Assembly: GCA_950054195.1 (NCBI GenBank) | Contig: CATLPG010000030.1 | Coordinates: forward strand, 1 to 34,537 | Reading direction: 5' to 3' | Source: an uncultured Saccharospirillaceae bacterium | GTDB lineage: Bacteria > Bacteroidota > Bacteroidia > Flavobacteriales_D > CAJJDF01 | Length of the DNA: 34,537 nucleotides | In this document: piece by piece, positions 8,971 through 22,053 of the stretch | How the letters are laid out: each line of letters opens with the position of its first letter | How positions within the stretch are numbered: position 1 is the stretch's first letter | The notes under the pieces: model-generated | What the model was told of the DNA's origin: nothing | The model's database searches: none | Seen by the model: only the letters and a program-made list of their open reading frames with translations | Made by a program: the position numbers and the translations under genes

Positions 8971-9604
8971 GAAAAAAAACATATTATTAATTGGAGGTGG
9001 TGGCCATTGTGTATCGTGCATTGATGTTATTGAGTCAAATAATCAATTTACTATCGTAGGTATTGTAGATCAATCAAAATCAAAAGACGAAAGTATTTTA
9101 GGGTATCCGATACTTGGAACGGATGAAGACCTTCCAAAATTTAGGCTAAAATATGATTATGCGTTTGTTACTATTGGTCATATGAAAAGCAATAAAGCTC
9201 GGGTTAAAAGTTTTGAATTATTAAAGTCGCTAGAATTTAAAATCCCTACTATTGTTTCTAAAACTGCAATTGTTTCAGCACATTCTTCAATAGATGAAGG
9301 GACAATTGTTATGCATCATGCAATAGTAAATGCCAATAGTCGTGTAGGAAAAAATTGTATCATCAACTCGAAAGCTTTAATAGAACATGATAATCATGTT
9401 GGAAGTCATTGCCATATATCAACAAACTCAACACTAAATGGCTCAGTGAGAATTGGAGACAATTGTTTTATCGGATCTAATAGTAAAACCGTTAATAACA
9501 TTACAATTAAAAATAATATTTTTGTTGGTATAGATTCTCTTGTAACTAAAAACTTAAGTGAACCAGGTATGTATTTAGGATCACCAGCAAGAAAATACAA
9601 ATGA
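8963..9604 (+). CDS. Sugar N-acetyltransferase, PglD/NeuD family
   Basis: A 213-residue acetyltransferase expected to acetylate the 4-amino group of the LegC product with acetyl-CoA. The N-terminal Rossmann-like half has ILLIGGGGHC (7-16) for the sugar nucleotide. The C-terminal half (about 95-205) is a left-handed beta-helix of hexapeptide repeats (SSIDEGTIVM, NSRVGKNCII, GSVRIGDNCF) ending SEPGMYLGSPARK. His142 in IEHDNH lines up with the catalytic His of PglD. I chose the ATG at 8963, which overlaps the legC stop codon. The longer TTG-initiated frame from 8933 would run deep into legC and adds a tail not seen in the family. The gene overlaps neuB by 4 bp (ATGA). NeuD-type O-acetylation of the finished nonulosonate is the main alternative role. 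Confidence 0.85.
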   Translation: MDRKKNILLIGGGGHCVSCIDVIESNNQFTIVGIVDQSKSKDESILGYPILGTDEDLPKFRLKYDYAFVTIGHMKSNKARVKSFELLKSLEFKIPTIVSKTAIVSAHSSIDEGTIVMHHAIVNANSRVGKNCIINSKALIEHDNHVGSHCHISTNSTLNGSVRIGDNCFIGSNSKTVNNITIKNNIFVGIDSLVTKNLSEPGMYLGSPARKYK

Positions 9605-10608
9605 AAAGAAGAACCATCATTATAGCGGAAGCAGGTGTAAATCATAATGGAAACATTGACATTGCTAAAAAATTGATTGATGCTGCTGCTCAAGCTGGAG
9701 CAGATTACGTCAAATTTCAAACATTTAAAAGTGATTTACTAGTGAGTAAAAAGGCTAAAAAAGCCAATTATCAAAAGAAAAATACCTCATCTTCATCTGA
9801 TTCGCAACTTGAAATGCTTAGAAAGTTAGAATTATCTGAAAATGATCATGAAAATTTAATTCTTCACTGCAAAAAAAGAAAGATAAAATTTCTTTCAACT
9901 GCTTTTGATTTGGAAAGTATTGATTATTTGAAGAACAAACTAGATTTCTATAAAATACCATCTGGTGAAATAACTAATTTACCTTACTTGAGAAAAGTGG
10001 CTACTCTAGGTTTGCCTGTTATAATGAGTACAGGCATGGCTTCTATGCAAGAGGTAAAAGATGCATTTGAGGTTTTAACCAAAGGGGGAGTTTTAGTAAA
10101 AGACATAACTGTTTTACATTGCAATACTGAGTACCCAACTCCTATGGCAGATGTAAACCTCTCTGCCATGAATACAATAGGCGAAGAACTAGGTGTATCT
10201 ATTGGATATTCTGATCACACTTTAGGTATAGAAATACCTATTGCTGCTGTTGCTTTAGGAGCTAATGTTATTGAAAAACATTTTACAATCGATAGATCTT
10301 TACCTGGTCCAGACCATAAAGCCAGTTTAGAACCAAACGAACTTAGTGAAATGATTAAATCAATTAGAAATATTGAGGTTGCTATAGGTGATGGTATAAA
10401 AAAGCCTAGCCTAAGTGAGCAAAAAAATATAGAAGTAGCCCGAAAAAGTATTGTAGCTGCTAAGGATATTAATATTGGCGACATTTTTAATGAAGACAAC
10501 TTAACTGTTAAGAGACCAGGTAATGGAATATCTCCAATGCTATGGGATGATGTGGTTAATACTAAAGCTAACAAAATTTATAAAAAAGATGATTTGATTA
10601 TCATATGA
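9601..10608 (+). CDS. neuB: Nonulosonic acid synthase (NeuB/LegI family)
   Basis: This 335-residue enzyme condenses phosphoenolpyruvate with a 6-carbon (di)acetamido sugar to give a 9-carbon nonulosonic acid. The TIM barrel shows EAGVNHNGN (10-18), YVKFQTF (36-42), IPSGEITN (119-126), MSTGMAS (142-148), GYSDHT (202-207), EKHFT (225-229) and DHKAS (238-242), which include the metal- and PEP-binding positions. The C-terminal SAF/antifreeze-like domain (about 280-335; RKSIVAAKDI, GNGISP) normally caps the partner active site in the dimer. The length is normal for the family. Whether the product is legionaminic, pseudaminic or sialic acid cannot be read from these motifs alone, but the neighbours point to a legionaminic-type substrate. 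It overlaps the genes on both sides by 4 bp. Confidence 0.93.
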   Translation: MKRRTIIIAEAGVNHNGNIDIAKKLIDAAAQAGADYVKFQTFKSDLLVSKKAKKANYQKKNTSSSSDSQLEMLRKLELSENDHENLILHCKKRKIKFLSTAFDLESIDYLKNKLDFYKIPSGEITNLPYLRKVATLGLPVIMSTGMASMQEVKDAFEVLTKGGVLVKDITVLHCNTEYPTPMADVNLSAMNTIGEELGVSIGYSDHTLGIEIPIAAVALGANVIEKHFTIDRSLPGPDHKASLEPNELSEMIKSIRNIEVAIGDGIKKPSLSEQKNIEVARKSIVAAKDINIGDIFNEDNLTVKRPGNGISPMLWDDVVNTKANKIYKKDDLIII

Positions 10609-11714
10609 AAGTTGGGGTATTAACAAGTTCACGGGCTGATTTTGGTATTTATTTACCTTTAATAAATAAATTAAAAGCTGACCCATATTTTGATTTAGAG
10701 ATCATTGTTTTTGGTACTCACCTATCAAAAGAACATGGATATACGCTAAATGAAATAATATCATATGGTTTTTCAAACATCCATAAAATTGATACATTAC
10801 CTAATGGTGATTCTCCTATGGATATTTCTTCTTCAATGGGCAAAACAATAGAGCATTTTTCTGCTTTTTGGAATGAACAACAATTTGACTTAGTTTTTGC
10901 TCTTGGTGATCGTTATGAAATGTTTTCTGCTGTTATATCCTCAAGTCCATTTAATATTGATATAGCTCATATTCATGCTGGAGAAGTTACTTTAGGAGCT
11001 ATAGATAATGCTTTTAGACATGGAATATCACACCTGTCAAAAATCTTACTAACTTCTTCTGAGGCTTACAGATTAAGAGCCAATCAAATTGTAGATAATA
11101 ACAAACTGATATTTAATGTTGGAGCTTTAAGCATTGATAATTTATCACATCAAAAATTGCTTTCTGTCGATGCATTTAAGGCTAAATTTGATATTGATTT
11201 GAGTATTCCTAGTATACTATCAACTTTTCATCCAGAAACGGTATCATTAAATAAAAATGAAGAATATATTTATGAGCTAATGGATGCTTTTAATGCTCTA
11301 TCAGAAAAGTATCAAATCATTATCACTATGCCTAATGCTGATACAATGGGGAATGTTATTCGAAAGATAATAATCAAACGTTCTGAAGAAATTAGTAATA
11401 TCAAATTAGTTGAGTCATTTGGTATGGAAGGTTATTTAAGCTGTATGAAACATTGTTCGTTTATGCTTGGTAATACTTCTAGTGGATTTATTGAAGCTAA
11501 TTATTTCCCTAAATATGTGATCAATATCGGTGACAGACAAAAAGGAAGAATAATCACAGAAAATATTTTTAATATTCCTGTTGATAAAAGTAAAATAATG
11601 GAATGCGTTGGTAAAATAGAAGAATCGAAAAAACTATCTTATAAAGGAATTTACGGTGAAGGCAATACAGCGACTGAAATAATAAAAGTTATAAAAAAAA
11701 TATATGCACAATAA
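10605..11714 (+). CDS. neuC: Hydrolysing NDP-sugar 2-epimerase (NeuC/LegG family)
   Basis: This 369-residue GT-B-fold enzyme removes the nucleotide and inverts C2 of an NDP-acetamido sugar, giving the free ManNAc-type sugar used by NeuB. Motifs: LTSSRADFGIYLPL (6-19), LALGDRYEMFSAV (around 98-110), HIHAGEVTLGAIDNAFRH (around 121-139), FHPETV in the second domain and LGNTSSGFIEA near the C-terminus, which bind the uridine or guanosine phosphate. In legionaminic loci the homologue (LegG/NeuC2) acts on NDP-diacetamido-bacillosamine. Presence of this gene supports the gluco-to-manno route used for legionaminic and sialic acids; the pseudaminic path uses PseG, which belongs to another family. It overlaps the ptmE-like gene by 11 bp. 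Confidence 0.92.
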   Translation: MKVGVLTSSRADFGIYLPLINKLKADPYFDLEIIVFGTHLSKEHGYTLNEIISYGFSNIHKIDTLPNGDSPMDISSSMGKTIEHFSAFWNEQQFDLVFALGDRYEMFSAVISSSPFNIDIAHIHAGEVTLGAIDNAFRHGISHLSKILLTSSEAYRLRANQIVDNNKLIFNVGALSIDNLSHQKLLSVDAFKAKFDIDLSIPSILSTFHPETVSLNKNEEYIYELMDAFNALSEKYQIIITMPNADTMGNVIRKIIIKRSEEISNIKLVESFGMEGYLSCMKHCSFMLGNTSSGFIEANYFPKYVINIGDRQKGRIITENIFNIPVDKSKIMECVGKIEESKKLSYKGIYGEGNTATEIIKVIKKIYAQ

Positions 11715-12738
11715 TATAATAAATATAACTACAACGATACGAAGTGCTTTAAAAAGATTGGATGAATTATCTGGTAAAACTTTGTTTATTATTGACGATC
11801 AAAATAAGATGGTTGGAACGGTAACTGATGGCGATATAAGAAGAGGGTTATTAAAAAACAATCAGCTTGAATCTACAGTTGAAACAATAATGTCTGGTTC
11901 ATTTAAGTATATAGAACAACACACATTTTCTATAGAACATCTAAATGATTTAAGGAATTCAAATATTCAACATGTTCCTCTTTTGTCAAAAGAAGGGAAA
12001 ATAATTGATGTCATTGACTTCAAAAAAGTAAGTTCTGTATTGCCATTAGAAGCGATCATAATGGCTGGAGGTAAAGGTACAAGATTACAACCTTTAACAT
12101 TAGAAACCCCTAAGCCACTTCTTAAAATTGGAGGTAAACCTATCATTGAATATAACATTGATCGACTAATCAAATTTGGCATTAAAACTATATATATATC
12201 TGTAAACTATTTAAAAGACCAAATAATAAATTATTTTGGAGATGGTAGTAGTAAAGGCATAACTATTAAATATATAGAAGAAGAGCACATAACTGGTACA
12301 TTAGGTTCTGCTACCTATGTTGACTCCTTCAATTCAAAAGACATACTTGTCATGAACTCTGATTTGTTGACAAATATTAATTTCGAAAACCTTTACCAAA
12401 CTTATATTTCTAACAAAAATGAAATGGCTGTTGCTACAATCCCTTACGATGTAACCATTCCATATGGTGTTGTTGAAACAAAGGGTAACTTAGTTACTTC
12501 TTTAAAAGAAAAGCCCACATACACTTATTATTCAAATGCTGGTATATATATAATAAGTAGTAAATGTATAAGTGAGATACCTAAAAAAACTTTTTATAAT
12601 GCTACAGAATTGATCGATAAGCTTATTAATGAAAATTGTAATGTAGTCAACTTCCCTATAGTAGATTATTGGTTAGATATTGGCAAACCTCACGATTATC
12701 AAAAGGCTCAAAAAGATGTTCATCAGATTAAATTCTAA
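11704..12738 (+). CDS. ptmE: CBS-domain sugar-phosphate nucleotidyltransferase, PtmE family
   Basis: 344 residues: two CBS modules (about 1-113, with DDQNKMVGTVTDGDIRRG and SKEGKIIDVID) fused to a nucleotidyltransferase domain (about 115-340). The latter has the NTP loop AGGKGTRLQP (121-130), the Lys of TPKPLL, a DxD-like NSDLL in the middle and DYWLDIGKP near the end. In Campylobacter the family member PtmE makes GDP-glucosamine from glucosamine-1-phosphate for legionaminic acid. The CBS pair suggests control by an adenine nucleotide, by analogy with other CBS enzymes. Its place between neuC and neuA matches legionaminic loci. Which NTP is used cannot be seen; if GTP, the pathway here would carry GDP-linked intermediates. 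Confidence 0.85.
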   Translation: MHNNIINITTTIRSALKRLDELSGKTLFIIDDQNKMVGTVTDGDIRRGLLKNNQLESTVETIMSGSFKYIEQHTFSIEHLNDLRNSNIQHVPLLSKEGKIIDVIDFKKVSSVLPLEAIIMAGGKGTRLQPLTLETPKPLLKIGGKPIIEYNIDRLIKFGIKTIYISVNYLKDQIINYFGDGSSKGITIKYIEEEHITGTLGSATYVDSFNSKDILVMNSDLLTNINFENLYQTYISNKNEMAVATIPYDVTIPYGVVETKGNLVTSLKEKPTYTYYSNAGIYIISSKCISEIPKKTFYNATELIDKLINENCNVVNFPIVDYWLDIGKPHDYQKAQKDVHQIKF

Positions 12739-12749
12739 TCTAGAAACGT

Positions 12750-13481
12750 ATGAAAAAAATTTTAATTACTATATGTGCTAGAGGGGGGTCCAAAGGTATA
12801 CCTGGGAAAAACATAAAAATGCTTGGTGGTAGACATCTTATCGGCTACAGTATAAAACACTCACAACTGTTTAAAAAATGGCTTGAGGAAAATAATTATT
12901 TAGTTTTAATAGAACTCTCTACCGATAGTGAAGACATAAAAAAAACAGCAGAAATTTATGGTCTAGAAAGCTCATACATGCGTCCTGCATTTCTAGCAAA
13001 TGATACAGCGGGAAAACTTGACGCAATTAAAGATATTTGTATTACAACTGAAGGTAAAAATCAAATGACCTTTGATTATATCATTGATCTTGATGTTTCT
13101 GCTCCAATGAGAAGCATTGAAGATTTAATAAAAGGTTTTAGTCTGCTTATTAGCGATGAAAACTGTACTAATCTTTTTTCTGTTAGTTTAGCCAACAAAA
13201 ATCCTTACTTTAATATGGTTGAAAAATCGGAAAAAGGATATTATGTTTTGTCTAAAGAAAAAAATCAAATTTTAAGCAGACAAAAAGCTCCTCTTGTATA
13301 TGAAATGAATGCATCTTTTTATTTTTACAAAAGAGCATTTTTTAATGAGGAAAAACTTTATTTATTTGATAAAGCACTAATTTATGAAATGCCTCACGAG
13401 TCTTTTGACTTAGACCATGAAATAGATTTTATGTTCTTAGAATTTTTGATTAAAAATGACAAGTTATCTTTCAAGCTATAA
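12750..13481 (+). CDS. neuA: CMP-nonulosonate cytidylyltransferase (NeuA/LegF family)
   Basis: This 243-residue enzyme couples CTP to the nonulosonic acid, giving the CMP-sugar donor. The N-terminal signature ARGGSKGIPGKNIK (10-23) is the CTP-binding loop of acylneuraminate cytidylyltransferases. TDSEDI (about 58-63), LDVSAPMRS (about 113-121) and DLDHEIDFMFLE near the C-terminus hold the acidic metal-binding positions. The length is typical for the PtmB/LegF group, without the C-terminal esterase domain of some NeuA proteins. It lies 11 bp after the ptmE-like gene and 3 bp before the Gfo/Idh oxidoreductase. Confidence 0.92.
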   Translation: MKKILITICARGGSKGIPGKNIKMLGGRHLIGYSIKHSQLFKKWLEENNYLVLIELSTDSEDIKKTAEIYGLESSYMRPAFLANDTAGKLDAIKDICITTEGKNQMTFDYIIDLDVSAPMRSIEDLIKGFSLLISDENCTNLFSVSLANKNPYFNMVEKSEKGYYVLSKEKNQILSRQKAPLVYEMNASFYFYKRAFFNEEKLYLFDKALIYEMPHESFDLDHEIDFMFLEFLIKNDKLSFKL

Positions 13482-13484
13482 ACA

Positions 13485-14393
13485 ATGAAAGTATTAGTAA
13501 AAGGTCTCGGCAGTATAGCTCAAAAACACATTGCTGCAATTAAGCTAATTAACCCCAGTGCCAAAATATATGCCTTACGCTCTAACAAGCCTAGTAATAA
13601 CATCGAAGGAGTCACAAATATTTACTCATTAGAAGAAGTTGACTCTATTTCACTGGATTTTTGCATTATTTCATCACCAACTTATAGTCATAAAACAGAT
13701 ATTAATCATTTATTAAAGCTTGATATCCCTCTTTTTATTGAAAAACCACTTTACCACCAATTAAATCTTGACGATTTACTGAATAATAAAAAACTTAAAT
13801 CAATAAAAACATATGTTGCCTGTAATCTTCGTTTTTTAGAAAGCTTGAATTATGTAAAAGAACATTATTTATCACAAAACAGTTTAAAAATTGAAGAAGT
13901 TAATGTTTACTGCGGTTCGTACTTACCCTTATGGCGTAAAAACACTGATTACAAATCAATTTACAGCGCTAATGAGAATATGGGAGGAGGTGTACACCTA
14001 GATTTGATACATGAAATTGATTACGTCTATTGGCTATTTGGTTCTCCAATTTCCACCTGTAAAAGATTATCTAGCAAATCCTCCATAGACATCAATGCTG
14101 TTGATTACGCTAACTATCTGCTGGAATACGATTCTTTCTACACGTCTATTATTCTTAATTACTACCGTAGGGATAGTAAACGAACAGTAGAAATAGTTTT
14201 TGATAGCTATACTCTAAAAGTTGATTTAATTAAAAATATTGTTTATAAAGACAATAAAATTGTTTTTAGTTCAAAAAAAAACATCAACGATACCTACCTA
14301 TCTCAAATGAACTATTTTATGCAGAATATAAATTCAACAAATTTTAATGATATTTTTGAAGCTTTTGAAGTATTAAAAATAAGCTTAGGCTAA
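13485..14393 (+). CDS. Gfo/Idh/MocA-family sugar oxidoreductase
   Basis: A 302-residue NAD(P)-dependent oxidoreductase. The N-terminal Rossmann part has KGLGSIAQKHI (6-16) and ISSPTYSH (62-69), then the family's EKP at 86-88. The C-terminal sheet domain has GGGVHLDLIHEIDY (167-180), with the His and Asp of the usual HxxxD catalytic region (His176, Asp179). It sits directly between neuA and the PtmA-like SDR, so it probably redox-modifies the nonulosonate, its CMP form or a precursor. The exact substrate is unknown. A nine-A tract lies at 14273-14281, near the 3' end of the gene. The protein is somewhat short for the family (often about 320-380 residues) but shows no break. Confidence 0.82.
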   Translation: MKVLVKGLGSIAQKHIAAIKLINPSAKIYALRSNKPSNNIEGVTNIYSLEEVDSISLDFCIISSPTYSHKTDINHLLKLDIPLFIEKPLYHQLNLDDLLNNKKLKSIKTYVACNLRFLESLNYVKEHYLSQNSLKIEEVNVYCGSYLPLWRKNTDYKSIYSANENMGGGVHLDLIHEIDYVYWLFGSPISTCKRLSSKSSIDINAVDYANYLLEYDSFYTSIILNYYRRDSKRTVEIVFDSYTLKVDLIKNIVYKDNKIVFSSKKNINDTYLSQMNYFMQNINSTNFNDIFEAFEVLKISLG

Positions 14394-14403
14394 AAATTAC
14401 ACT

Positions 14404-15135
14404 ATGTTAAATAATAAAGTCATCATCGTTACTGGAGGAGAGGGTTTAATAGGCAAGGAAATTGTAAATGATATTAGAAAAAAGGGAGGAATAGCCATTA
14501 GTGCAGATATAACACATCAAACAAACCTAGAGAAATTCAAATTGAATTTTGATGTAACTTCTAAAGAGAATATAGAAGATGGCTACAATAAAATCATTGA
14601 AAAGTTTAAAAAAATAGACGGGGTAGTAAATAATGCCTACCCGAGAACGAAAGATTGGGGTAGTTTTTTTGAAGATATTACCATTTCTTCATGGAAAGAA
14701 AATGTTGACCTTCAATTAAATTCCGTTTTTCAATGTATCCAATCAATCATACCTCACTTAAAAAAGTCAAAAGGTACAATAGTTAATATTGCATCTATAT
14801 ACGGAGTTGTAGGAAATGACTTCACCGTATATGTAGGCACGGGGTTAACTTCTCCTGCGGCATATTCTGCTATTAAAGGAGGTATTATAAATTTTAGCCG
14901 ATACCTTGCTTCATACTATGGTGATGCTGGCATAACAGTTAATACCGTTTCTCCAGGGGGTATATTTAACCACCAACATGAAACATTTGTAAGAAATTAT
15001 GAAAAAAAAGTCCCTCTAAGAAGAATGGGCACACCTGAGGACATTGCCCCTGCTGTTTCATTTTTATTATCAAATGGTGCAAAATATATTACTGGTCAAA
15101 ATTTAATCGTTGATGGAGGTTGGACTGCTATCTAA
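14404..15135 (+). CDS. ptmA: SDR-family oxidoreductase, PtmA-like
   Basis: A 243-residue classical short-chain dehydrogenase/reductase with the cofactor loop TGGEGLIG (10-17), VVNNAYPR (74-81), NIASIYG with the catalytic Ser131, Tyr154 and Lys158 in YSAIKGG, then NTVSPGGI and a C-terminal TGQNLIVDGGW. The segment GTGLTSPAAYSAIKGG resembles the PtmA (flagellin modification protein A) subgroup found in Campylobacter next to the CMP-legionaminate synthetase gene, which is also the arrangement here. Known PtmA biology is glycan precursor synthesis, but the exact reaction is not certain. It may act in sequence with the Gfo/Idh protein encoded just upstream. Confidence 0.83.
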   Translation: MLNNKVIIVTGGEGLIGKEIVNDIRKKGGIAISADITHQTNLEKFKLNFDVTSKENIEDGYNKIIEKFKKIDGVVNNAYPRTKDWGSFFEDITISSWKENVDLQLNSVFQCIQSIIPHLKKSKGTIVNIASIYGVVGNDFTVYVGTGLTSPAAYSAIKGGIINFSRYLASYYGDAGITVNTVSPGGIFNHQHETFVRNYEKKVPLRRMGTPEDIAPAVSFLLSNGAKYITGQNLIVDGGWTAI

Positions 15136-15157
15136 TTTTTGATTGTATATTTAAAAA

Positions 15158-16399
15158 GTGAATTTCCCTGAAAGACATATTGTAATAAATTATTTCTTTG
15201 ATAATTTAAAATTAAATTATCATATAGATGATCACTCCTTTAATGATCTAAAAGACTTAATTCCTAATAACTATTCTTCTTTTAACTCAATTACTGATTT
15301 ATCTCCATGCTGGCTAAACTGGAAATCCTTTAGCTTTCCTGTGTTTTTTGAAAAGCCAAAAGATTTATTTGTTAGTGATCAACTTACTATTGATGTTTTT
15401 TCAAATACTTTTTTGTTACTGTCAGGATACCAAGAATTTATAAGCAATGATTTAGACATACACAGTCGTTTTAAATATCAAAATTCGATTCAATATATAC
15501 ACAATTTCGTTGATACTCCAGTTGTAAACATTTACTTTGAAATTTTTGAAAAACTAGCAAAAAAAAGAGGAATAACTTTACAAAAAAAAGTCATAAAAGA
15601 ACCAATAGTATTTACTCATGATATCGATCAACTTCGGTCTGGTTGGTTCGAGGATATAGGCTACGAATTAAGAAACTTCTCCTTCAAAAGCCCATTTAAC
15701 ATAAGTAAAAGTTTATTTACTAAATTATTCGGACTGAAAGACTCGTACCATCAAGCCTATGATAAAATGTTAACCATAGAAAAAAAACACCAAGTATCCG
15801 CAATTTCATTTTTTATGACCGAAAAATCAAAAAAAGATGCAGATTACGATATTCAAAGAGTAAAATATCAAAAGCTTATTAAAAATTCTCATAATGAAAT
15901 TGGTTTACATCCAGGATATTACACTTATAATAACTTTGAGAATTTTGAAAAACAACTAAGAATTTTATCTTCTTTTGATTTTAATGTTAGTAAGGTAAGG
16001 CAACATTTTTTAAAATTTAGCATCAGAGAAACTCCATACATCCATAATAAAAATAAAATATCTGAAGATTACTCACTAGGCTTTGCAGAAATGTATGGTT
16101 TTAGAAATAGTATTGCTTTACCTTTTTATCTATATGATTTTAATAAAAATAAAGCTCATCCAACAATAGAGATTCCCTTATTTTTTATGGATGGCACTAT
16201 TAGCCATTATCGTAAAGATAAGAACAGAGAAGAAGAGTTTGGTAAAGTATTACAATCTGCAAATAAAATATTAACTCTTTTTTCATGTAAATTTTCTGTT
16301 TTATTTCATAACACGGTTTTTTCAGAAAAAAAGTACAAAGGATTTACTAAGCTCTACTTGGACTTTATTAAATTAAATAAAAAGTTTTCAAATGATTAA
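15158..16399 (+). CDS. Polysaccharide deacetylase-fold protein of surface glycan locus
   Basis: A 413-residue protein starting at GTG 15158; an in-frame stop lies 6 bp upstream and no ATG occurs near. The first ~145 residues have no motif I can name. From about 150 on it resembles the deacetylase (NodB-like) superfamily in Bacteroidota glycan loci: VFTHDID (151-157) with Asp-rich motif 1, NEIGLHPGYYT (246-256) in the place of the zinc-binding segment, and SKVRQHFLKF (278-287). The standard HxxxH zinc motif is not obvious, so zinc-dependent N-deacetylation is uncertain. It overlaps the following glycosyltransferase-like gene by 8 bp, which suggests linked roles, perhaps trimming or recognising an acetamido group on the glycan. 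No signal peptide is seen, so it is likely cytoplasmic. Confidence 0.7.
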   Translation: MNFPERHIVINYFFDNLKLNYHIDDHSFNDLKDLIPNNYSSFNSITDLSPCWLNWKSFSFPVFFEKPKDLFVSDQLTIDVFSNTFLLLSGYQEFISNDLDIHSRFKYQNSIQYIHNFVDTPVVNIYFEIFEKLAKKRGITLQKKVIKEPIVFTHDIDQLRSGWFEDIGYELRNFSFKSPFNISKSLFTKLFGLKDSYHQAYDKMLTIEKKHQVSAISFFMTEKSKKDADYDIQRVKYQKLIKNSHNEIGLHPGYYTYNNFENFEKQLRILSSFDFNVSKVRQHFLKFSIRETPYIHNKNKISEDYSLGFAEMYGFRNSIALPFYLYDFNKNKAHPTIEIPLFFMDGTISHYRKDKNREEEFGKVLQSANKILTLFSCKFSVLFHNTVFSEKKYKGFTKLYLDFIKLNKKFSND

Positions 16400-18188
16400 G
16401 AAAACAGCAATCGTTTTACGAAAACTTGACCCTAATGAAACAATAAAATCATTTGATGAGGTATATGTGTTAAGTGATTATTACTACGAAATAGAACATT
16501 CAAATAAAAATCTCTTAGAGATTGGAAATAATTTCAAAAAAAAAATTGAGGAAGAATTTAGACAGAAAATAAAAGACTTTGGGCACACATCATATAATAA
16601 TAAAAGTGTCATCGAAAAACTATCCATTAATAATGATACTTACTGGTACTACTTAAGGTTTAGTCTTTACCATCAATTAATCTCAAAAATTTTAGAGTAT
16701 AATATTATTGAAAAATATAAACCAACAATTAAATCTAATGATAATTTAACTTTCTTCACAAAATATGAGCACTCTCATCTAGAGAAAAATATTAATATAC
16801 ATAGTGAAAAAATTATAAAATCTAAATCAAATATGAGTGCTAAAATCAATTTAGCACTCATATTTGTTATTAGAAGCCTAATCGGATTATATCGCTCTAT
16901 TTCAATCAAAAGAAAGGAAAATATTATTCTTTTAGAGCCATACAATCAACAACAATTAATCGATATAGAAAACCCTGATCAATTTATATCAGGTGATTAT
17001 TATAACGAATATTTCACCAATCACGCGCTTAAAAGAGACGATTTCTTTTTCTTATCAGATATATATCCTCCTCCACTAAGTGAAGATATTAAACTCAAAA
17101 AAGCTTACTTTGTAAATAAATACTCTAAACGATCCTTAAACTTTGAATATTTTATAGCACTAGTATTAATAAATCCAATAAATCTTTACAAAGCTTATAA
17201 AATCAACAAGCAATTAAAAAAGAACCTAAGTTTCAATAATAATGAGCTATGCTACACAGATAATTTATTATTTAATTTTTTACAAAGTAAAAGTAAGCTA
17301 TTGACTTACATTTGGATCCGTGAAAAAGCCGCTAAAATTGCAACTAGAAATAAGAATATTAAGCGAATTATAGGTCATCATGAACAATCAATTAATCACT
17401 TTTCTATCATTAAAGGTAGTAGAGAGAATAATATAATTTCTATTGGTATACAGCATGGTGTACTAACACCTTTTCATATGCAATACATCTACGACTCTAG
17501 GGATTTATCATATAAGCCAACAGCTGACTATATGATTACTTGGGGGGATTATTGGAATAATCTACTGATTGACTCATCTATATACACCAAAAATAATTGT
17601 TTTGCATTAGGTCAAATCAGAACAGATGTTATACCTAACCTAAATAAGTTATACCATGGCAATTCTAAAAAAAATATTTTGTTTGCATCTCAACCTGCTA
17701 TAATTGGTGAAGAAATAAGATATAATTTAGCACGTGATATATTAATGTCAGCTAAATCACTTAACTATAAGTTAATTATAAAACCACATCCTGGTGAAAA
17801 AGATGCTATAATTTTTTTCAAAAAAGTTGCAAATGATGTAAACTACTACGACTATGTGATTTCGAATAATGATTTATATAAATTATTAAGTGAAAGTGAC
17901 TGCTTAATGACTTATCACAGTACTGTATCTAGTGAAGCAGTGTACTTTTTAAAACCTGTTATCATTTTAGATTATAAAGAATATGATATTTCTAATTATT
18001 CGAAATTTGAAGGAGCTATATTTACAATAAAAAATAAAAATGAACTTATTAATACTCTTGACTTATTAATAAATGATAAACTAAAGATAAGTTTAGAAAC
18101 TCAAAAAAAATTCATTTCTAAATATTCTTTTAGCATTGATGGTAAAACCTCCGAGAGGTACATTAACTTTATACAATCACTATCGTAA
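16392..18188 (+). CDS. GT-B glycosyltransferase-like protein (candidate nonulosonate/capsule transferase)
   Basis: A 598-residue protein I cannot assign to a named family with certainty. The C-terminal half looks like a GT-B transferase of the capsule/polyglycerol-phosphate kind: ISIGIQHG (349-356), TWGDYW (383-388), FALGQIRTD (404-412), IIKPHPGEKD (462-471) and YHSTVSSEAV (508-517). The KPHP and STxxSEA segments resemble the donor-binding motifs of CDP-glycerol and sialic-acid polymer transferases. The N-terminal half is Lys/Asn-rich with a hydrophobic stretch at about 152-165. Its place after the CMP-nonulosonate genes makes it the best candidate for the transferase using that donor. It contains a ten-A tract (16536-16545, codons 49-51) and a perfect inverted repeat (16828-16866, codons 146-159). 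Confidence 0.65.
   Translation: MIKKTAIVLRKLDPNETIKSFDEVYVLSDYYYEIEHSNKNLLEIGNNFKKKIEEEFRQKIKDFGHTSYNNKSVIEKLSINNDTYWYYLRFSLYHQLISKILEYNIIEKYKPTIKSNDNLTFFTKYEHSHLEKNINIHSEKIIKSKSNMSAKINLALIFVIRSLIGLYRSISIKRKENIILLEPYNQQQLIDIENPDQFISGDYYNEYFTNHALKRDDFFFLSDIYPPPLSEDIKLKKAYFVNKYSKRSLNFEYFIALVLINPINLYKAYKINKQLKKNLSFNNNELCYTDNLLFNFLQSKSKLLTYIWIREKAAKIATRNKNIKRIIGHHEQSINHFSIIKGSRENNIISIGIQHGVLTPFHMQYIYDSRDLSYKPTADYMITWGDYWNNLLIDSSIYTKNNCFALGQIRTDVIPNLNKLYHGNSKKNILFASQPAIIGEEIRYNLARDILMSAKSLNYKLIIKPHPGEKDAIIFFKKVANDVNYYDYVISNNDLYKLLSESDCLMTYHSTVSSEAVYFLKPVIILDYKEYDISNYSKFEGAIFTIKNKNELINTLDLLINDKLKISLETQKKFISKYSFSIDGKTSERYINFIQSLS
16536..16545 (+). repeat. A10 homopolymer inside the GT-B gene
   Basis: Ten consecutive A encode Lys49-Lys51 and the first base of codon 52. 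Gain or loss of one A would shift the frame near the N-terminus and truncate the protein soon after. Such tracts are possible slippage sites for on/off switching of surface glycan genes. In this AT-rich locus A8 and A9 tracts are also common, so function is not shown. Confidence 0.6.
16828..16866. repeat. Perfect 17-bp inverted repeat within the GT-B gene, with CIRCE-like half-sites
   Basis: The left arm CAAATATGAGTGCTAAA (16828-16844) and right arm TTTAGCACTCATATTTG (16850-16866) are exact reverse complements around a 5-nt loop ATCAA. The arms contain GAGTGCTAA and TTAGCACTC, the two half-sites of the HrcA operator CIRCE, but in the opposite order to the real operator. No T tract follows on the plus strand, so it is not a typical terminator. 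Confidence 0.9.
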
Positions 18189-18189
18189 C

Positions 18190-18999
18190 ATGACAATAAA
18201 AGAAAAAATAATACATAATCTTAAGCAAGGAACATTTATAAAAAATGGCAAAAAATTTATATATCAACGCACGCTTAAATTTTTCAAATACAATAATTTA
18301 TTTAGTTCATTTAGCGATCATAAGAAAAAAATAAAAAATTTATATGAAAGTTTCCCTTCCATTAACTCTATTGAATGCATTACTTATGGCAATTATTTTG
18401 GAAGCAAAAAAGCACCTCTTAACGAAAAGAGTGTAGTTTATTCATTAGGTGTTGGAAATCATATTGACTTTGACCTAGTTGTTGCCAATGAATACAATAG
18501 TAATGTATACCTGTATGATCCTACTCCTGAATCTATTGAATTCATGAAAAAATTCATTTCAAATGAACGATTAATTTTTAACCCTTATGGAGTCTGGATG
18601 CATGAAACAACTTTAACATTTTACACCCCTAAATATGGCGGATCATCTTCTGCTGTTAACCATATGGATAGTAATTCAGATTCTTTTGACGCTAAATGTT
18701 ACCCATTAAAAAAATTCATGCTCGATAATAATCATGATTATATTGACTATTTAAAAATGGACATTGAGGGAGCTGCACTACCAATACTTAAAGATCTATT
18801 TGAAAATAATATTTTTCCTAATCAGGTAATGACAGAATTTGAATCACCAAATGGAAGCGATAAAGATAAAAAAGATGCTTTTTTAAAAGATGTAAATTAT
18901 GTTACTGAAATAGCTAAAAAAAATGGTTATAAAATATATAGTATTCCATACGAAGGCCCAAAATATTATTCAATCGAACTATTGATGACTAAAGTATAG
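18190..18999 (+). CDS. FkbM-family methyltransferase-like protein
   Basis: A 269-residue SAM-dependent methyltransferase-like protein. I chose the ATG at 18190, one base after the stop of the preceding gene; the longer frame from TTG 18136 would overlap that gene by 53 bp. Motif I is VVYSLGVGN (82-90), followed by VYLYDPTPESIEF (106-118), with the acidic residue after strand 2. The FkbM segment LKMDIEGAALPIL (188-200) is clear. Motif I has Ser-Leu in place of the more common Asp-x-Gly, so cofactor binding may be altered. FkbM enzymes O-methylate sugars and natural products. In this run it would fit methylation of a glycan hydroxyl. The flippase gene follows after 2 bp. Confidence 0.8.
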   Translation: MTIKEKIIHNLKQGTFIKNGKKFIYQRTLKFFKYNNLFSSFSDHKKKIKNLYESFPSINSIECITYGNYFGSKKAPLNEKSVVYSLGVGNHIDFDLVVANEYNSNVYLYDPTPESIEFMKKFISNERLIFNPYGVWMHETTLTFYTPKYGGSSSAVNHMDSNSDSFDAKCYPLKKFMLDNNHDYIDYLKMDIEGAALPILKDLFENNIFPNQVMTEFESPNGSDKDKKDAFLKDVNYVTEIAKKNGYKIYSIPYEGPKYYSIELLMTKV

Positions 19000-19001
19000 T
19001 T

Positions 19002-20507
19002 ATGGGGATTGTGGCTAGGCAAACTATAAAAGCTTCGTTTGTTATTTATGTTGCTGCACTGGTTGGAGCAATGAATAGGCTTTATTTTTATCCTAAGTTT
19101 GTTTCTAAAGAAGAGCTAGGTATACTGCAATTAGTTATCATATTGGGTACTCTTCTATCTCAGTTTAGCTTTTTGGGTATGTCTACAGCACTCTCTAAAT
19201 ACTTTAAAATGTTTAAGGATGCTGGATACTTAGGACAGCTACTTTTTTTATTTTTTGTAATACCATTAATCGGATTTATTGGGTTTTCAACAATATATTG
19301 GTGCTTTAGTGAAGACATTAGTTCACTTTACAGTAAAGGTGACTCTAAGCTAGATGAATATGCTATCTATGTGATACCGATAGGTTTTTTTATTCTTCAG
19401 CTCAATTCACTGGTTATATTTTGTAACAATAACCTTAGGTTAACCGTGCCTTCTATTTTCAATGATCTATTTATTAAACTAACGTTTTTAACTGGTTTAG
19501 TATGTATAGGTTTGGAATGGATCAATTTTAAGGAGTACTTGCTTTATGTATCTGCTGGATACGGATTAGCCTTTATAGCACTATTAACATACAGCTTTAT
19601 TTTGTTTAAACCACCTGTAAAATCAAAAATAAGTTTAGTCCCAAGAAGTTTTTTGAAAGACCTTTTTCAATACAGCAGCTGGTTTTTTATTGGTAGTTTA
19701 TCCAGCACGTTTATTCTTTCAGCTGATTCGATTATGCTAGGAGCCTATGAAGGAGTTGAAGCCGTTGGAGTATATACTATTGCTTTTTTTATAGGATCGG
19801 TTATTGAAATTCCTAAAAAAATGATTGTTAGTATTACAACACCAATAATTGCTGGTCATTGGAATAACAATAACACGAAAGAAATAAACAAGTTATATAA
19901 ACAGTCCTCCATAAACCAGGGTATTGTAGGGGTGCTATTGATTGTATTGCTTATAACTGGACTAGATGAATTATTTTATCTAATGCCTAATGGAAATGAG
20001 TTTATTGTAGGTAAATGGGTAGCTGTTTTTATTGGGTTATCCAAAGTTATAGATATGTTTGCTGGCGTTAATAGTGAGATAATTAAAACTTCCAGAATCT
20101 ATCGTCTTGATTTTATCTTATCCTTATTGTTTGTTCTTTTGGTTATCATTTCGAATTATATTTTTATTTCTATTCTTGAAATGGGGTTAAATGGAGCAGC
20201 TCTAGCTTCTTTAGCTGCAGTTTTCATTTATAATTTATCTAGATTTCTTATACTAAAAAAAGTATTTGGCCTCAACCCATTTACACTAAAATCTATTATT
20301 CTTTTGGCTATTGGCACTGGTTGCTTAATTGTTGGTTATTTACTGCCTAATTTTTCAATAGGTAGTAACTCGTTCTTAAACTTAGTCTTTGCATTAGTTT
20401 ATAAAACCGCTATTATTAGTGTACTATTTTTAGTTGGATTACATGGATTCAATATTTCTCCTGAATTTAATAATATAGTAAAGAAAATTACAAAACGTTT
20501 ACGTTAA
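19002..20507 (+). CDS. Wzx-type polysaccharide/lipid-linked glycan flippase
   Basis: A 501-residue integral membrane protein of the MATE/Polysacc_synt superfamily, which moves lipid-linked oligosaccharides across the inner membrane. The N-terminal region (ARQTIKASFVIYVAALVGAMNRLYFYPKF) is typical, with a conserved early amphipathic stretch and polar residues in helix 1. I count about 12-14 hydrophobic segments over the whole length, for example near 35-60, 74-95, 120-140, 155-205, 220-290, 300-325, 370-395 and 430-485. It is the last gene of the plus-strand run. Its stop overlaps the stop of the opposing FkbM gene by 9 bp (20499-20507). It is the expected exporter of the nonulosonate-bearing glycan. 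No Wzy polymerase gene is seen nearby. Confidence 0.87.
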   Translation: MGIVARQTIKASFVIYVAALVGAMNRLYFYPKFVSKEELGILQLVIILGTLLSQFSFLGMSTALSKYFKMFKDAGYLGQLLFLFFVIPLIGFIGFSTIYWCFSEDISSLYSKGDSKLDEYAIYVIPIGFFILQLNSLVIFCNNNLRLTVPSIFNDLFIKLTFLTGLVCIGLEWINFKEYLLYVSAGYGLAFIALLTYSFILFKPPVKSKISLVPRSFLKDLFQYSSWFFIGSLSSTFILSADSIMLGAYEGVEAVGVYTIAFFIGSVIEIPKKMIVSITTPIIAGHWNNNNTKEINKLYKQSSINQGIVGVLLIVLLITGLDELFYLMPNGNEFIVGKWVAVFIGLSKVIDMFAGVNSEIIKTSRIYRLDFILSLLFVLLVIISNYIFISILEMGLNGAALASLAAVFIYNLSRFLILKKVFGLNPFTLKSIILLAIGTGCLIVGYLLPNFSIGSNSFLNLVFALVYKTAIISVLFLVGLHGFNISPEFNNIVKKITKRLR

Positions 20508-21263
20508 CATTACGTGTAAATATACATCCCCACTAAGAACTTCTTGATCGTCTAATAATTTATCAATATTTGGTTGCCAAATAGTATTATTATAATGTAT
20601 GTCTTTTAAATACTCAAACTTAAAATTTTCGAAACCAAAAATCTCTGAAATATATTGATATAGCTTTTTAGATTCATCATTAAAATTCCCCATATGGAAC
20701 TCTATCAAAAAACTTGTTTTTCCTTTTTTGATGATGTTTTTACAGCCCTTTAATACCTCTAACTCAAATCCATCAGCATCAATTTTAATAAGTGTAGGAT
20801 ATTCATTATTAACTGAAAACTCATCTAAACTTACTGTTTTCCCTTGAGTTTTTTCTCCCACAAACTTAGGTACTAACATCCAGTCGTTTTGATTTTCACT
20901 AAGTTTAGCCGTGCGCTCAAAAAACATGGAGTGGCCAATGAAAGGTTCAAATCCATAAATTTTAGATTGGCTCACAGTATATAAAACTTGAGAATAATAC
21001 CCAAAACAAGCCCCAACATCATAAACAACTCCTTTAGCGTTTGAGTAATCTGAAATCATTTTTTCTTTAACACCAGTTTCATGACCTTTTTTATATCCTC
21101 CTAGCATATTTTCTGGAACAGAAACTTTAACTATTTCTCCATTTGCTAAAGGCTCTTCAAAAATTACTTCTTTATGATTGATAGCATATAGTTTCTTAGC
21201 CAGTGCTGGAGGCAGTATACCAAGAATATTATTCTTGAAATTATCTGTTTTACTCTTAATCAT
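20499..21263 (-). CDS. FkbM-family SAM-dependent methyltransferase
   Basis: A 254-residue methyltransferase with motif I VVYDVGACFGYYS (79-91), acidic motif II GFEPF (104-108) and the FkbM signature LIKIDADGFELEVLKG (158-173). It has a more canonical SAM site than the FkbM-like protein encoded at 18190. A likely role is O-methylation of a surface sugar. It is the last gene of the minus-strand run, overlaps the dioxygenase gene by 8 bp, and converges with the flippase gene. ATG start at 21263. Confidence 0.85.
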   Translation of the reverse strand: MIKSKTDNFKNNILGILPPALAKKLYAINHKEVIFEEPLANGEIVKVSVPENMLGGYKKGHETGVKEKMISDYSNAKGVVYDVGACFGYYSQVLYTVSQSKIYGFEPFIGHSMFFERTAKLSENQNDWMLVPKFVGEKTQGKTVSLDEFSVNNEYPTLIKIDADGFELEVLKGCKNIIKKGKTSFLIEFHMGNFNDESKKLYQYISEIFGFENFKFEYLKDIHYNNTIWQPNIDKLLDDQEVLSGDVYLHVMLT

Positions 21264-22053
21264 TTTTTATAATAACTTTACTAGAATGCTCCATCATTTT
21301 ATCGTAAATAGCCAGAGGACTATAATAATTTGTTAAAGCATATCGTGTACCTTCTTTAATAGGTGAACCTATATGGATTCCTCTTGTATCTACTAGTATT
21401 AAAGTCCCTGCTTTAGCAGTAAAAGTAGTTTTCTTGAGCTTAAATTTATTTTCAATAATAGAGACTTCATTTTCAGATAATCTTAGCTGATTGTACTTAA
21501 CTCCACAATCTCTAATAGAATCAACTACATTTTGATCATTATGTGAACCTAATAAGTATGTAAAAGGTCCGTTTGCTTCCTTCACATCAGATAAATATAA
21601 AATAGCCTTGAATTCATTCATATTTACAGAATCGCGGTGCCAACCACCTCCTGAACCTTTGTTATTTTCTTTAAAAACTAATTTAGCGGCCAAACACATA
21701 GTTAGTTTTAATTCCGTTTTCAGATAATTTTCCCCTACAGATTGAAGTTTTTGGTTAAACCCATACTTCGCTATTAAGTCTGATACCTTTTCTGCTCCAT
21801 AAATTCGATGATCAGAAGCAACATCATCTACCCAATATTTACCTTCATACTTCACTAATAGTTCGTCAATTTCATTTCTATAAGCTATACATTCTTCTTT
21901 TGTGAAAAAATCAGAAATAGCTACTACCCCATTTTGCTCAAGCTCTTGAAATACTGATTTAAATTCGTCTGCTAAGTTTAGTTTAGGGGCTTCTTTTTTA
22001 AACTTTGACCTATGGTAGGCAATATTCGCTTTGGTTTTAAGTACATCAAACAT
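21256..22053 (-). CDS. Phytanoyl-CoA dioxygenase (PhyH)-family Fe(II)/2-oxoglutarate oxygenase
   Basis: A 265-residue cupin-fold oxygenase. The iron ligands can be placed: WHRD with His139 and Asp141, and GIHIG with His227; Arg237 in EGTRYALT is the likely 2-oxoglutarate-binding residue. Other family marks are AILYLSDV (150-157), NGPFTYLLGSH (161-171) and AGTLILVDTRG (215-225). The family hydroxylates lipids, sugars and small metabolites. Next to FkbM and GT4 genes it may hydroxylate a glycan or lipid moiety, but no substrate can be named. Gap to the GT4 stop is 8 bp. Confidence 0.85.
   Translation of the reverse strand: MFDVLKTKANIAYHRSKFKKEAPKLNLADEFKSVFQELEQNGVVAISDFFTKEECIAYRNEIDELLVKYEGKYWVDDVASDHRIYGAEKVSDLIAKYGFNQKLQSVGENYLKTELKLTMCLAAKLVFKENNKGSGGGWHRDSVNMNEFKAILYLSDVKEANGPFTYLLGSHNDQNVVDSIRDCGVKYNQLRLSENEVSIIENKFKLKKTTFTAKAGTLILVDTRGIHIGSPIKEGTRYALTNYYSPLAIYDKMMEHSSKVIIKND

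Follow-up and report, generated by a model that had tools for sequence, protein, structure and literature searches.

A one-off 17 bp coding palindrome with everted CIRCE half-sites, probably without dedicated function, in an uncultured bacterium

Results

The window, by which we mean the whole stretch of 34,537 nucleotides analysed here, contains a perfect hairpin inside a protein-coding gene, and we put at roughly 80% the probability that this is a single-copy, lineage-specific coding palindrome without a dedicated function. It is present once in the genome, is absent from homologous genes and is accompanied by no trace of the heat-shock system that its sequence recalls, and it is thus likely to be a mutational curiosity without function. 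It is most likely neutral, and template switching possibly contributed to its formation.

The left arm (16828-16844, plus strand; CAAATATGAGTGCTAAA) and the right arm (16850-16866, plus strand; TTTAGCACTCATATTTG) are 100% complementary over 17 nt and are separated by a 5 nt loop, ATCAA (16845-16849, plus strand), in agreement with the preliminary description of this DNA. That description had also noted two exact 9 bp half-sites of CIRCE, the HrcA operator, in reversed order and 7 nt apart, and both are found in the hairpin: GAGTGCTAA lies within the left arm at 16835-16843 on the plus strand and again at 16851-16859 on the minus strand, where the right arm reads TTAGCACTC. The location in codons 146-159 is likewise borne out by the 598-residue open reading frame (ORF) at 16392-18188 on the plus strand. 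The right arm includes the Leu codon CTC, which accounts for just 4% of Leu codons and is placed exactly where pairing with the left arm requires that codon, and the left-arm codons are ordinary; we take the rare codon as a hint of template switching. RNA folding, proposed earlier as a check, gives a stable stem, with a minimum free energy of -25.8 kcal/mol for 16808-16886 and a mean of -7.1 for dinucleotide-shuffled sequences (z -8.1). No Rfam family matches the hairpin.

The ORF carrying the hairpin encodes a probable glycosyltransferase or glycerophosphotransferase-like protein, with homologues at 25-32% identity in the same order. Its earlier labelling as a GT-B gene finds weak support in residues 326-573, which share 23% identity with CDP-glycerol glycerophosphotransferase-family proteins, but none in a Pfam search of the ORF, which returned no match. 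A single-sequence structure model of the protein has a mean pLDDT of 33, and no reading is based on it. The gene is 26% GC and the whole genome 32% GC. It lies within a run of plus strand ORFs, and upstream of it genes for a NeuB-family synthase, a UDP-GlcNAc 2-epimerase, a nucleotidyltransferase, a cytidylyltransferase, an oxidoreductase and a short-chain dehydrogenase follow one another at 9601-15135; this row is a nonulosonic (sialic-acid-like) acid cluster.

How unusual such a hairpin is was assessed with a survey of perfect inverted repeats (loops of 3-20 nt) in 1.56 Mb of non-N sequence from the source genome (3.27 Mb in 118 contigs), 1.43 Mb of which are ORFs. The hairpin is the longest perfect coding inverted repeat in those 1.43 Mb, in which there are 41, 9, 6 and 1 repeats with arms of 10, 11, 12 and 13 bp, respectively. 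Arms of at least 13 bp are nearly all intergenic in the sample, and many of these repeats resemble intrinsic terminators. One ORF repeat with 15 bp arms ends in a T9 run near the ORF start, and is therefore probably a terminator within an over-extended ORF. When synonymous codons were permuted within each gene (100 replicates), the mean numbers per sample for arms of 10 to 17 bp were 36, 10.5, 2.8, 0.96, 0.30, 0.12, 0.01 and 0.02. Extrapolated linearly to the whole genome, the last value corresponds to about 0.04 arms of 17 bp per genome, or one in about 25 genomes. The earlier statement that a chance origin is improbable therefore holds within one genome, and a 17 bp coding stem, rare as it is there, is expected across a scan of many genomes. 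With the peptide held fixed, the probability of all 17 pairs forming at the hairpin centre is about 2e-5. Ten coding repeats have arms of at least 12 bp, against about 4.2 expected from the codon-shuffle null, and at least one or two of these appear to be artefacts of ORF calling; this mild excess fits an arm-homogenising mutation, and part of it may be ORF-calling error.

A palindrome inserted in frame, of the kind seen as palindromic elements in other bacteria, or the remnant of one, would account for a perfect inverted repeat that lies within a coding sequence and is missing from the homologues. However, codons 146-159 align free of gaps in seven homologues belonging to the same order (identity of 25-32% across the aligned parts), which contradicts the suggestion of an insertion remnant in the preliminary description, and no second copy of the hairpin is present in the source genome. 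An inserted palindromic element was rejected on these two grounds, and we consider this origin very improbable. The closest recurrences in the genome are one single arm matching the 17-mer with one mismatch and one double half-site with three mismatches, in a search allowing up to three mismatches in both half-sites. At the aligned segment the homologues have similar hydrophobic residues, with an arginine just downstream in most, and none of the seven has a palindrome there, the longest perfect arms being 4-8 bp. RNA folds of three of these segments give z values of -0.3, -1.1 and -3.7, the last arising from a different, unrelated pairing. A search by peptide patterns of 84,980 species genomes found no closer homologues, a phylum sample yielded no homologue at E <= 1e-25, and a plasmid search gave distant partial matches only; the best homologues are about 30% identical, and it is at this distance only that conservation of the hairpin is judged. 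Judged from the alignment, codons 146-159 are part of the ancestral protein, and the palindrome lies in the DNA spelling alone. Of the marks of a coincidence named in the preliminary description, those that can be read from sequence are what we observe: homologues have the equivalent segment with no palindrome, and the genome has no other copies.

The same observations bear on whether the hairpin acts within the operon, by slowing ribosomes or RNA polymerase or by exposing or blocking RNase sites, and so sets the relative amounts of upstream and downstream mRNA. The stem is very stable for its composition, is the longest among the coding inverted repeats of the sample and is situated within a run of plus strand ORFs, all of which fit such a role. 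Nonetheless, we think it unlikely: all seven homologues do without the hairpin, it has neither an Rfam match nor copies elsewhere in the genome, and ribosomes are expected to melt a stem lying in a translated frame. The more specific proposal, in which the coding hairpin is lineage-specific, adjusts expression within a surface-polysaccharide operon and is kept by selection on synonymous sites, is rather less likely again.

A further possibility concerns the opposite strand. At 20499-20507 the tails of two convergent gene sets share 9 bp, which leaves no intergenic gap, and none of the terminator-like sites listed by a simple scan falls at this junction. Four terminator-like sites are listed in 15001-22000, of which only the minus strand hairpin has a long stem. 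The terminator-like score of the minus strand stem and the 9 bp convergent overlap therefore make it conceivable that the hairpin is an antisense intrinsic terminator stopping transcription from the convergent minus strand operon, with low probability. Of the T run that follows the GC-rich stem of an intrinsic terminator, the hairpin has a counterpart on the minus strand only, and this T tail (ATTTAGATTT) is interrupted. Moreover, the hairpin is 3.6 kb beyond the end of the minus strand genes, is without the A-run/T-run stem base of many intergenic stems in the genome, and is among four listed sites where 2.2 are expected, so that we regard this function as quite improbable.

The similarity to CIRCE was examined at the level of the genome. 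A profile search for HrcA (PF01628) gave no match in the source genome (G000), the assembly of which is rated 100% complete, and the same search matched 7 of 14 control genomes. HrcA was found in only one of 20 searched genomes of the genus, family and order of the source, a member of the same order (L025, genome G016; E 9.8e-37), the other 19 being negative. The search for normal CIRCE elements that had been suggested earlier, run over the whole genome with up to three mismatches, returned a single match with three mismatches and none with fewer. Within the window the half-site 9-mer is not enriched, with seven hits at up to one mismatch and 6.8 expected. One of the sequences concerned, GAGCACTC at 16766-16774, precedes the hairpin by about 60 nt and belongs to a half-site with one mismatch, such hits being at chance level.

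Everted half-sites were also sought elsewhere. When 84,980 species genomes, together with viral contigs, were scanned for TGAGTGCTAA-N3-12-TTAGCACTCA, 35 stretches were obtained, mostly from Actinobacteria, and 22 of these are flanked on either side, at a distance of exactly 9 nt, by outer half-sites (6 or more of 9 bases). From this canonical spacing, the everted element in each of the 22 is read as the two inner half-sites of a pair of tandem CIRCEs, and three of four examined cases adjoin a groEL-like gene. Such cases fall among L108-L137, from Actinobacteria and a few other genomes, for example L110:3416-3444, L127:4780-4807 and L133:1796-1823. Stand-alone TGAGTGCTAA...TTAGCACTCA hairpins outside long ORFs are also seen (L107:3678-3707, L134:3315-3338 and L119:3599-3628, from Algibacter, Chryseobacterium and Bacillus), and outer CIRCE half-sites are absent from both of those checked, L107 and L119. 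The everted arrangement in itself thus already occurs in nature.

The two exact 9-mers, and the occurrence of everted half-sites as the middle of tandem CIRCEs, are what would recommend the hairpin as a variant HrcA operator or as part of a tandem CIRCE. In the window, however, just 1 of 9 bases agrees with the consensus at the outer position on either side, so that the hairpin is not a CIRCE and not a tandem CIRCE either; identity with the latter was ruled out on this basis. It is also situated mid-gene and not at a promoter, in a genome whose best CIRCE match has three mismatches and in which HrcA was not found by a search that detects it in half of the controls. The link to CIRCE drawn in the preliminary description, for which a second copy is missing as well, accordingly fails, and we hold an HrcA operator to be extremely improbable.

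Discussion

The simplest account of the one-off coding palindrome is codon coincidence. Its two arms specify ordinary residues in a conserved segment of the protein, SNMSAKINLALIFV, and synonymous codon choice in a gene of 26% GC would have yielded the inverted repeat. A template switch during DNA replication possibly finished the stem, one arm being made the exact complement of the other. A stable stem would form in the mRNA, and ribosomes are expected to unwind it during translation. Against a neutral reading we note the strength of the stem (z about -8), and also that intergenic stems of such length in this genome look like terminators.

The hairpin serves mainly as a caution, since an exact match to the half-site of a known operator does not imply the operator, and a perfect stem may occur just once in an AT-rich gene. 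It is also a clean single case of an inverted repeat within a bacterial coding sequence. Given sequences of close strains, it could be used to ask whether such stems are built by template switching.

Among known systems, CIRCE has the same two 9 bp half-sites, which the hairpin shares exactly, but in the hairpin these are reversed about a 7 nt spacer and lie mid-gene, in a genome without HrcA or CIRCE; CIRCE is located upstream of a chaperone gene, whereas the hairpin is in codons 146-159 of a sugar-cluster gene. The middle of the tandem CIRCEs of Actinobacteria and a few others has, like the hairpin, GAGTGCTAA followed by TTAGCACTC, with a gap of 7-14 nt, and differs from it in having outer half-sites at 9 nt spacing. 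Template switching that homogenises the arms of inverted repeats inside coding genes is documented in yeast (PMC8604942); the likeness is in the proposed origin, one arm being copied from the other in a coding sequence, but the yeast events are shown by strain phylogeny, whereas the best homologues of the hairpin gene are about 30% identical. In the mitochondria of Nematomorpha, perfect coding palindromes are translated into functional protein (PMC6649704), and the hairpin resembles these as a perfect inverted repeat of which both arms are translated, although the Nematomorpha palindromes are numerous and up to 284 bp long, whereas the one described here is single and of 17 bp.
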